From: Gloeomargarita sp. SKYB120
GTDB lineage: Bacteria > Cyanobacteriota > Cyanobacteriia > Gloeomargaritales > Gloeomargaritaceae
Direction: 5' to 3'
Assembly: GCA_025062155.1 (NCBI GenBank)
Contig: JANXAM010000020.1
Coordinates: 1 to 45,660 of the forward strand
DNA: 45,660 bases
Both the position numbers and the translations under genes were made by a program. The notes beneath the pieces were generated by a model that worked only from the letters and a program-made list of their open reading frames with translations, made no database searches and was not told the origin of the DNA. Of the stretch, positions 33,163 to 37,785 are shown piece after piece. Every line of letters begins with the position of its first letter. Positions within the stretch are counted from its first letter, which is position 1.

Positions 33163-33264
33163 TATAGCTAAGCTATCTATACTGGTCATCTTTTAGGTTG
33201 CAGGGCGCAGCTTCGGCTTGGGTTTTCCTATCATCGCCCTGACAAACTGAAGCGGTCAGCTATA
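33163..33264. mobile_element. MITE-like element 2 (102 bp), IS630-type TA ends
   Basis: TATAGC at 33163-33168 and GCTATA at 33259-33264 are inverted ends; counting the flanking T and A the match becomes TTATAGCT and AGCTATAA. An inner inverted pair, CAGGGCG (33201-33207) and CGCCCTG (33235-33241), could form a hairpin. Its length is within 1 bp of the element at 1014-1116, and it shares TTTAGGTTG and the TATAGCTGA end with it. There is no coding capacity. It sits about 40 bp upstream of fabG. Confidence 0.5.
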
Positions 33265-33427
33265 AAACTTAGTTTTGATTGGGCAAGGAAAGGTTGCTAT
33301 CCAGCACCAATTCGGCATACAAATCCTGGCGAATTGGCTGTAATTGTTTCAACCCCGTCAGGTTGTGCGGGCTATACCACCATGACGTGGCAATTTTTGT
33401 AGATAAGCCGTTGCCCTATGATATCGG
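33265..33427. other. intergenic stretch, nothing assigned
   Basis: A short minus-strand peptide frame (about 33270-33365) reads plausibly as protein (LTGLKQLQPIRQDLYAELVL) and may be the tail of a lost gene, but it has no start and no family I recognise. No promoter or RNA gene stands out. Confidence 0.3.
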
Positions 33428-33803
33428 TTATGCTTGTCTTGAGTTACAGGGCACAATCCGATGATTGGGTTTCCGATGATCTCTCTGACCGCTAAAGTAG
33501 CTTGGTATAGAACCGCAAAGGGAGCATGTTTCATCGTGCTCTAGCTCTATGTGCTCTAGCTCTATCTCTACGATTTCCGATGTGGCGCATTTATATAGCC
33601 AAGATTGAGAGATACCTGTCACCCGAGAGATAGCCGCAATTGAAAGTCGCTCTAACAACATTTTATCCACTAATTGCTTCTACTCTCCAAGGAATGTATT
33701 AATGTATTTCTTTCAGGCGTAAATGGATACGACCGTACTTCTCAATATTTTAGACTGGCAAAGGGGGCAAGTAATTGTACTCATGGCTTCACCCAAATCC
33801 AAG
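33428..33803 (-). pseudogene. truncated IS1-family transposase, copy 2
   Basis: Read on the minus strand, this begins with a short N-terminal frame (MSTITCPLCQSKILRSTVVS, zinc-finger-like) near 33785 and, after a disrupted part, continues with MDKMLLERLSIAAISRVTGI, the IS1 helix-turn-helix region, then IELEHDETCSL, a degraded CDEMWSF catalytic start. Similarity to IS1 stops there, so the catalytic domain is lost. It matches the 5' part of copy 1 (24701-24920) in inverse orientation. Each copy keeps segments that the other lacks, which suggests independent decay of two insertions. Confidence 0.75.
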
Positions 33804-34041
33804 TGTCCCTATTTCAACCATTACAAAAACAAGACGACCGTCTAGGCTTCTCATCCCCTAGGTCGTAGAGCGCAACCCCACCCTTTTGTAGTTCTTGCCC
33901 TTCACGTTTTCACTAGAGTCTACCCCTTTGGCTTAAGCCCTATCGAGTAGCCCGCCTCAGACTCCGGGTTGGTCTGCAAACGTTGTGAGCACAATCTGTC
34001 GGTGTAATTGTCAGATTTATCAAGGTTTTGTGCTTTGGGGA
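33804..34041. other. gene-free stretch between IS1 remnant and tRNA
   Basis: There is no gene that I can support. A hairpin at about 33834-33871 (GACC and CTAGG arms) resembles the structured ends of small transposons, and minus-strand frames of up to 36 codons are open, but without recognisable family similarity. It is probably decayed mobile DNA. Confidence 0.35.
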
Positions 34042-34114
34042 TGGAGAATAGGAGACTCGAACTCCTGACCTCTGCGGTGCGATCGCAGCGCTCTACCAAC
34101 TGAGCTAATTCCCC
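34042..34114 (-). tRNA. tRNA-Ala, anticodon CGC
   Basis: The minus-strand sequence folds as a full cloverleaf of 73 nt. The acceptor GGGGAAT pairs with ATTCTCC and the discriminator is A. The D arm starts GCTCAGTTGGTAGAGC, the anticodon stem is CTGCG/CGCAG with loop ATCGCAC (anticodon CGC), and the T arm is AGGAGTTCGAGTCTCCT. The G3:U70 pair is the alanine identity element. CCA is not encoded. The anticodon arm contains the octamer GCGATCGC, the cyanobacterial HIP1 palindrome. gpsA lies 9 nt upstream on the same strand. Confidence 0.95.
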
Positions 34115-34122
34115 AGCATCTT

Positions 34123-35982: not shown

Positions 35983-36537
35983 ATGACCAAAGTCCTGGCT
36001 TTCGTCCTGGCACTGGTGCTGTGGTGTGTGTGGGCACCTGCAGCCCAGGCGGATGTCGCCGGCTTGACCCCCTGTCGGGAATCGGCGGCGTTTCAGCAAC
36101 GATTGCAGAATGAAGTAGCTACACAGGAGGCGCGTTTGGCGTTGTACGCAGCGGGGAGTCCGCAGGCGCAGGCGATTGAGCGGCGGATTGCCCAAACCAA
36201 GGCCCGCTTCGAGCGCTACGCTGCCCAAGGCTTGTTGTGTGGGGAGGACGGTCTCCCGCATTTGATTGTCGATGGGCGCTGGTCGCACGCGGCGGAATTC
36301 ACTCTGCCAGGGTTGCTGTTTCTGTACATGGCTGGGTGGATTGGCTGGGCTGGACGAGCCTATTTGATCGCCATCCGGTCGTCAAAGGAACCCACTGAGA
36401 AGGAGGTCGTTCTGGATGTGCCGCTAGCCATCCGCTGTATGTTGTCGGGCTTCAGCTGGCCGGTGATGGCGTTCCGGGAGTTAACCACGGGGCAATTAAC
36501 CGTGCCGGATGCGGAAATTTCTGTTTCTCCGCGCTAG
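35983..36537 (+). CDS. psaF: photosystem I subunit III (PsaF), plastid-like form
   Basis: PsaF lies at the lumenal side of PSI and, in plastids, docks plastocyanin or cytochrome c6. The 184-residue precursor has a signal peptide (cut after APAAQA, residue 23), LTPCRES with Cys31, [17 protein letters not shown], the membrane helix [19 protein letters not shown], and a typical AEISVSPR end. Between AFQ and RFERY it has about 36 residues (38-74), against about 19 in the cyanobacterial PsaF sequences I remember. The extra part resembles the helix-loop-helix of plastid PsaF, though with few lysines. GAGAGG lies 8 nt upstream of the ATG, and TATAGT near 35909 may be the -10 box. Confidence 0.95.
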
Positions 36538-36691: not shown

Positions 36692-37162
36692 ATGAGTGAG
36701 GAATTTGTGCGGCCCTGGCGGGGCGACCCGATGCAAGGGCATTTGGAAACGCCGGTGAGCGCGGGTTTGGGCATGGCGCTTATCAACAATTTGCCGGCCT
36801 ATCGCCCTGGCCTGGAACCCTCGCGGCGGGGGCTGGAAATCGGTATGGCCCATGGCTACTTTCTGGTCGGTCCATTTTACAAGCTGGGTCCGCTGCGGGA
36901 TTCGGAGTATGCCCTAGCAGCAGGCGTGATGGCCGCCCTGGGAGTAGTGCTGATTGCGACGGTGTGTCTGTCGCTCTACGGCAGTGTGTCTTTTGATAAA
37001 CCGACACCGGGGGGGACAACCGACCAACTGCAGACGGCGGAAGGCTGGAGCAGCTTTACTGGCGGGTTTCTCATCGGTGGCGCTGGGGGAGTTGCTTTTG
37101 CCGGCGTGCTCCTGTTTTTCTTGCCAGTCTTGCAGGGGATTGGCAACAACCTGTTTAACTAA
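36692..37162 (+). CDS. psaL: photosystem I subunit XI (PsaL)
   Basis: The 156-residue membrane protein contains NNLPAYRPGLEPSRRGLEIG and GYFLVGPFYKLGPLR (the conserved N-terminal stroma region and first helix) and two further helices ending in LPVLQGIGNNLFN. PsaL governs PSI oligomerisation into trimers or tetramers. GGAGGTGG precedes the ATG. psaI, the usual partner of psaL in trimer-forming strains, is not next to it; instead psaL closes a psaF-psaJ-psaL cluster. A terminator follows 24 nt downstream. Confidence 0.95.
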   Translation: MSEEFVRPWRGDPMQGHLETPVSAGLGMALINNLPAYRPGLEPSRRGLEIGMAHGYFLVGPFYKLGPLRDSEYALAAGVMAALGVVLIATVCLSLYGSVSFDKPTPGGTTDQLQTAEGWSSFTGGFLIGGAGGVAFAGVLLFFLPVLQGIGNNLFN

Positions 37163-37186: not shown

Positions 37187-37216
37187 GGGGGCTAACCAAG
37201 TAGCTCCCTTTTTTTT
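37187..37216 (+). terminator. rho-independent terminator of psaFJL
   Basis: GGGGGCTA pairs with TAGCTCCC (one wobble) around the loop ACCAAG and is followed by eight T residues. It lies between psaL and the convergent Uma2 gene. Confidence 0.85.
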
Positions 37217-37785
37217 CACAGGACCAACAATTCAAAAATGGCCTGGGCGGTGATGCGCCAATCCGCCAGCACGTCTAGCACGGGCAGGGCTTCATCCCCC
37301 CGTTTCAGTTCGGGAATGTCGTCGCCGGTGTAGGTCAGCACCGCCTGGCGTTCAGGCAGCACCAGCCACCCCACCTGGGCGCCGCTGGTCATAGCGACAC
37401 CAATTTTGTTCATCACCTGCAGGGGAGACTGTGCCGGCGATAGGATTTCGATGAGCCAGTCGGGAACACCGGTCACGGTATCGGCAATGGCGCCATCGGG
37501 CTGAAAGGGGATGTTGGACCAGCGCAACACCACAATGTCAGGGACGATGGATACGTCTCCAAAATTGCAGCGCAGTTCGGGGAAGGCAAAAGCTAATTTG
37601 GAGGGCTGGGCAATCTGGTTAATAGCGGAGGCCAGCCGAACTTGCAAGACGCTGTGGTGAAATTGGGGCATCGGTTTCACAACAACTTGCCCATGGATAT
37701 ATTCACTGGCGGGTTTGGTCTCGGGAAGCGCCAGGAATTCCTGCAGGGACAACCGTTGCGCCGATGCCCGTTCAGCAACCATCAC
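37216..37785 (-). CDS. Uma2 family endonuclease-like protein (DUF820)
   Basis: The 189-residue protein is a full-length Uma2: RLSLQEFLALPETKPASEYI at the N-terminus, then HGQVVVKPMP, VSIVPDIVVLRW, PDWLIEILSPAQSP and AQVGWLVLPERQAVLTY, with the conserved Asp, Glu and Asp positions of a PD-(D/E)XK-like site. Cyanobacterial genomes carry many copies; activity and targets are unknown. It converges on psaL, and the psaFJL terminator touches its stop. A decayed relative is at 8146-8353. Confidence 0.88.
   Translation of the reverse strand: MMVAERASAQRLSLQEFLALPETKPASEYIHGQVVVKPMPQFHHSVLQVRLASAINQIAQPSKLAFAFPELRCNFGDVSIVPDIVVLRWSNIPFQPDGAIADTVTGVPDWLIEILSPAQSPLQVMNKIGVAMTSGAQVGWLVLPERQAVLTYTGDDIPELKRGDEALPVLDVLADWRITAQAIFELLVL

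Follow-up and report, generated by a model that had tools for sequence, protein, structure and literature searches.

A plastid-length lumenal domain in Gloeomargarita PsaF, probably inherited from early cyanobacteria and free of the plastid lysine face

The window analyzed here is a 45,660-nucleotide stretch of DNA from Gloeomargarita sp. SKYB120, and it carries an ordinary Gloeomargarita psaF gene whose product has a long, plastid-type lumenal domain. We consider it likely that the helix-loop-helix in this domain is ancestral, that it was deleted in the crown cyanobacteria, and that it was passed to plastids, where it gained its lysine face. Should the long form be ancestral, events took place in the opposite order: plants charged an old scaffold rather than gained one, and most of the cyanobacteria that have been studied represent the derived case. 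In structure papers published through 2026, the PsaF helix-loop-helix is regarded as a eukaryotic feature, and the form found in cyanobacteria is taken as the point of departure. The claim in recent papers that cyanobacteria lack the extension is contradicted by the present data, because it fails for early-branching lineages. Strictly, the eukaryote-only label fits the charge and not the helix-loop-helix motif.

Features of the psaF region of the window (coordinates are those of the whole stretch)
Feature	Coordinates	Strand	Basis
psaF, photosystem I subunit III, 184 aa	35983..36537	+	PF02507, E 2.4e-72
Signal peptide, residues 1-23, ending ..APAAQA before DVAGLTPC	35983..36051	+	read from sequence; cleavage inferred
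Lumenal helix-loop-helix, mature residues 12-58 (plastid-type extension)	36085..36225	+	AlphaFold2, cysteine spacing, T. elongatus comparison
Transmembrane and stromal part of PsaF, mature residues 77-161	36280..36534	+	AlphaFold2, alignment
psaJ, 41 aa	36551..36676	+	PF01701, E 7.8e-22
psaL, 156 aa, third gene of the psaF-psaJ-psaL cluster	36692..37162	+	PF02605, E 9e-54

The identity of the gene and of its host is straightforward. The Pfam model PF02507 is covered over 169 of its 172 positions with a score of 242.8 bits against a cut-off of 27, and the protein is therefore a full-length member of the family. Its closest named counterpart is the PsaF of Gloeomargarita sp. SKYG116 (95% identical), a genome with which the window shares 79% DNA identity over 3.1 kb. 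In a genome database, the window genome is also grouped in one genus with six others. These three observations place it in Gloeomargarita, as the preliminary description had guessed. This genus is the nearest known relative of plastids according to literature cited in PMC11304991.

The mature start of the protein lines up with the DIAGLTPC or DVAGLTPC of plastid PsaF, and the similarity continues into the lumenal part. Between the AFQ and RFERY motifs there are 36 residues, compared with 18 in PsaF of the T. elongatus type, and the excess of 18 agrees well with the 17 or so estimated at the outset. The conserved cysteines C8 and C63 are separated by 54 residues, a spacing also found in PsaF from spinach, Chlamydomonas, and the red alga Porphyridium, and the segment between them aligns to plastid PsaF without a gap at 54 of 54 positions. 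Because of this gapless alignment, and because the segment is kept in all eight Gloeomargaritaceae genomes searched, the extension cannot be attributed to chance.

Structure prediction is consistent with this alignment. An AlphaFold2 model built from a 32-sequence alignment contains helices at residues 12-29 and 37-58 with pLDDT values near 95, which matches the two helices around an 11-residue stretch proposed from the letters alone and gives the protein a predicted N-terminal helix-loop-helix of plastid length. Membrane and stromal helices follow at 77-109, 114-119, and 123-146, in a part of the protein that can be aligned to long and short PsaF alike. The overall pTM of the model is only 0.56; a probable reason is that, with the subunit modeled in isolation, nothing holds the lumenal part in a set position against the membrane part. 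When the model was compared with the PDB by Foldseek, the top 44 matches were all eukaryotic (plastid) PsaF chains, many of them gap-free over the whole length. The first cyanobacterial match, the short form 1jb0, ranked 45th and required 163 columns for a 141-residue target. The best PDB matches by sequence alone likewise include the plastid chains 7y7b, 8wm6, 9kz9, and 7y5e. The plastid-like pattern noted earlier is thus borne out, and the predicted fold matches that of plastid PsaF.

Plastid PsaF from red algae, cryptophytes, glaucophytes, and the green line belongs to the same family, is ∼47%-60% identical to the window protein, and has, in the sequences read, the same 54 residues between cysteines and the same predicted helix-loop-helix. 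The short PsaF of T. elongatus (1jb0), Synechocystis, and Nostocales shares the family and the transmembrane and stromal part, with ∼60% identity in the case of T. elongatus, but its 29-34 residues between cysteines leave no space for two long helices. Gloeobacterales PsaF (7f4v from Gloeobacter violaceus and 9e0j from Anthocerotibacter panamensis) is long, with 45 and 53 residues, and resembles the window protein in having docking positions without net positive charge. It is, however, just 30%-39% identical to the window PsaF, and the Gloeobacter form is nine residues shorter. A model of the Anthocerotibacter protein also contains two helices (12-30 and 37-59); only its secondary structure was used because the whole model superposes poorly on solved PsaF (TM ∼0.5, rmsd ∼11).

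What distinguishes the window protein from its plastid counterparts is the docking face. In mature PsaF numbering, K20, K23, and K27 contact cytochrome c6, and K16, K19, and K20 have also been marked (PMC13036084); another paper gives six PsaF lysines at 78-92 in precursor numbering (PMC9579051). The N-terminal domain of Chlamydomonas PsaF has earlier been transplanted into Synechococcus elongatus PSI (Hippler 1999, cited in PMC13036084). We scored eight positions (12, 16, 19, 20, 23, 24, 27, and 30 of the mature protein), with 12 and 24 added to the published set because plastids have Lys there. In the window PsaF these residues are A, Q, Q, N, A, T, A, and A, and the lysine-rich face is absent, as previously claimed, with none of the eight being Lys or Arg. 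The net charge at these positions is 0 in the window protein and averages 0.0 in Gloeomargaritaceae, −2.4 in Pseudanabaenaceae, −2.6 in the family we take to be Thermostichales, and −0.3 in Gloeobacter and its kin. In plastids the mean is +4.5, ranging from +3 to +4 in the red line to +6 to +7 in the green line, a gradient defined by eight plastid sequences. Other sampled cyanobacterial long forms also lack the docking lysines, apart from scattered single ones and two in some Gloeobacter.

The domain as a whole is not free of positive charge. The preliminary description counted a single lysine in the AFQ to RFERY stretch; the lysine count is correct, but seven arginines had not been counted, and together with the one lysine they outweigh five glutamates between the cysteines to give a net charge of +3. 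This charge lies almost entirely on helix 2 (net +3), and helix 1, which is the docking helix in plastid PsaF, has a net charge of 0.

The electron donors present a similar picture. Cytochrome c6 from the window genome has a net charge of 0 and a pI of 6.9, and the same protein in three relatives (G085, G241, and G427) ranges from −1 to +2. Unlike the green-algal protein, it has no acidic patch: residues E69, E70, E71, and D65 of Chlamydomonas cytochrome c6 (1cyi) correspond to P, T, D, and G. It retains R66, which is essential in cyanobacteria (residue roles from PMC13036084). A contig end truncates the plastocyanin of the window genome itself. The plastocyanin of G085 has a net charge of 0 and a PHRGAGM motif with the cyanobacterial Arg. 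With PsaF lysines and the cytochrome c6 acidic patch both absent, the plant-type electrostatic contact is missing on both sides. These donor charges agree with the proposed model, but donor charge varies widely among cyanobacteria and the comparison is no statistical test. The plant, green-algal, and Cyanophora-like PsaF probes and the Chlamydomonas cytochrome c6 probe served for searching only, and later comparisons use sequences from PDB entries; Cyanophora PsaF was compared through match tables alone. As a separate observation, the plastocyanin gene of G241 (locus L171, bases 1685-2220; G241:C1 ∼2857150-2857715) is split by a 536-base stretch of N, after which coding resumes. This stretch could be an inserted element or an effect of masking.

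To survey the long form, residues between the two conserved cysteines were counted in 133 genomes. Two length groups emerged, one of 29-34 residues (70 genomes, plus one at 37) and one of 45-68 (62 genomes). The value of 62 out of 133 is not a natural frequency, because genomes were picked to cover families and most of the long matches. Long PsaF is present in all eight Gloeomargaritaceae, all 32 Pseudanabaenaceae, all eight Thermostichales (f25), five of six genomes in the family of Gloeobacter and its kin, and the single genomes of families f56, f57, and f58. Further long forms occur in f53 (one), f52 (one), f55 (three), and one of six f18 genomes. Most crown families have none, their short forms falling at 29-34. 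Gloeobacter has an intermediate spacing of 45 (37 in one relative), and Anthocerotibacter panamensis has 53. Three of the family names rest on direct matches: plasmid contigs from two f26 genomes are 100% matches to Pseudanabaena sp. PCC 7367 and Synechococcus sp. PCC 7502, the PsaF of G393 (f50) is identical to 7f4v over the 97 residues tested, and that of G443 (f58) is identical to 9e0j over 152 residues. The longest spacing seen, 68 residues, belongs to G417 (f57, locus L080), a small early-branching genome.

No report of this distribution was found in the literature searched, which covered a minority of subscription papers; the distribution may be taken up in the Anthocerotibacter PSI paper that accompanies 9e0j. 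Where PMC9000952 compares Gloeobacter PsaF with short forms, the passage concerned notes a different loop (Gln31-Asp36) and not a longer stretch.

The spread of the long form was placed on a species tree of 16 ribosomal proteins (2461 columns, 60 genomes), rooted on Gloeobacterales and with plastids left out. For Gloeobacterales, ribosomal genes were taken from a second region because the rest of the operon sits elsewhere in those genomes. The IQ-TREE topology, which carries no support values, branches in the order Gloeobacterales, f25 with f56, Pseudanabaenaceae, f53, Gloeomargaritaceae, and crown. FastTree, whose local supports were used, deviates from this order at weakly supported nodes. 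Fitch parsimony reconstructs a long root with three to five changes, and a two-state Markov (Mk) model gives a root P(long) of 0.997-0.999. At the node uniting Gloeomargaritaceae with the crown, P(long) is 0.92-0.93 on one tree and 0.50-0.55 on the other, which puts f9 beside Gloeomargarita with a support of 0.04. The deep long state is therefore firm, with the point of loss less securely placed. Given its breadth across cyanobacterial lineages, the extension is best read as an ancestral trait rather than a novelty of Gloeomargarita and plastids.

Several long forms do not follow this pattern of early retention. Those of f52, f55, and G467 (one f18 genus) nest inside the short crown, which implies that psaF was transferred horizontally or that the long form was lost more than once. 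A tree of the C-terminal part of PsaF joins them with the deep-branching f53, although these genomes are distant from each other on the ribosomal tree, and this grouping points to a possible horizontal transfer of psaF. The loci involved in this grouping are L105 (G395), L107-L109 (f55), L110 (G467), and L106 (G396). Far-red PsaF2 was also considered as a source of the crown long forms and set aside; in one paper its loop is described as shortened, not extended.

If transfer of this kind were general, the species distribution as a whole would reflect exchange of psaF rather than ancestral retention. We judge this improbable, because the main early lineages consistently have the long form and are recovered as separate PsaF groups, one per lineage, in the full-length tree. 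A similarly small chance is assigned to repeated independent insertion, by which the plastid resemblance would be convergence. The long forms within the crown (f52, f55, and G467) and the differing length in Gloeobacter would fit such a history. However, the 54-residue segment aligns without gaps across Gloeomargaritaceae, Pseudanabaenaceae, f53, and plastids, and A13, F14, a similar loop, and an R-F/Y..Y end of helix 2 recur among the cyanobacterial long forms.

The least probable reading is a single gain shared by Gloeomargarita and plastids before the plastid endosymbiosis, which the common 54-residue length, the plastid PsaF chains among the best PDB matches, and the union of plastids, Gloeomargaritaceae, and Pseudanabaenaceae in the full-length tree might suggest, but which is already largely refuted by a long root state and by the occurrence of the extension in all PsaF found from Pseudanabaenaceae and Thermostichales and in almost all from Gloeobacterales. 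The preliminary description had favored this reading, seeing the extension as a sign of kinship with the plastid ancestor and expecting it to be uncommon in unrelated cyanobacteria. The domain is indeed plastid-type, but its occurrence in Pseudanabaenales, Thermostichales, Gloeobacterales, and at least three further families runs partly against that expectation and leads us to reject the extension as a synapomorphy of Gloeomargarita and plastids. PsaF trees were also set aside as a means to place plastids. The 99 columns of the C-terminal tree, in which plastids do not group with Gloeomargarita, are too short to resolve their position, and part of the signal in the full-length tree comes from the extension itself.

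Returning to the ancestral long form, the following history can be proposed. Early cyanobacteria would have had the long helix-loop-helix, which early-branching lineages keep. In Gloeomargarita it may form an uncharged wall that projects next to the donor pocket, with donors docking chiefly in the hydrophobic PsaA/PsaB groove and by way of their own conserved Arg, as in other cyanobacteria, and PSI would then form no tight, fast PsaF-dependent donor complex. A deletion of ∼18 residues would have taken out the scaffold in crown cyanobacteria. After the origin of plastids, helix 1 would have acquired lysines, in small number in the red line and in greater number in the green line, while plastid donors turned acidic to create the plant-type docking site. 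The earlier idea that the fold preceded its basic face fits these data and appears strengthened, in that the long form seems old and its docking positions are uncharged.

The uncharged scaffold may plausibly guide donors sterically or support the contact between PsaF and PsaB. That the ancestral form, lost in the crown, still shapes donor docking in early lineages by nonelectrostatic means is a tentative proposal, and one that we would hold somewhat less probable than its opposite. If the long form is indeed ancestral, Gloeomargarita, Pseudanabaena, and Thermostichus would be living intermediates for the rise of electrostatic donor docking.

The surroundings of psaF are also of interest. Upstream, positions 33200-34120 form a region of ∼0.9 kb with few long ORFs and with short ORF fragments, adjoining a tRNA-Ala(cgc) gene (34039-34115, minus strand). 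Pfam searches of this region returned sub-threshold matches only, and the fragments might represent a decayed mobile element. The psaJ gene starts 13 bases past the psaF stop, and the order psaF-psaJ-psaL is contiguous in eight of eight Gloeomargaritaceae (loci L001, L002, L006, L048, L050, L051, L052, and L056). This linkage has been tied to tetrameric PSI. The question of whether Gloeomargarita PSI is tetrameric has been raised (PMC8760143). Directly downstream from psaL, and convergent with it, lies a gene for a putative endonuclease of the Uma2 family (37216-37785, minus strand).
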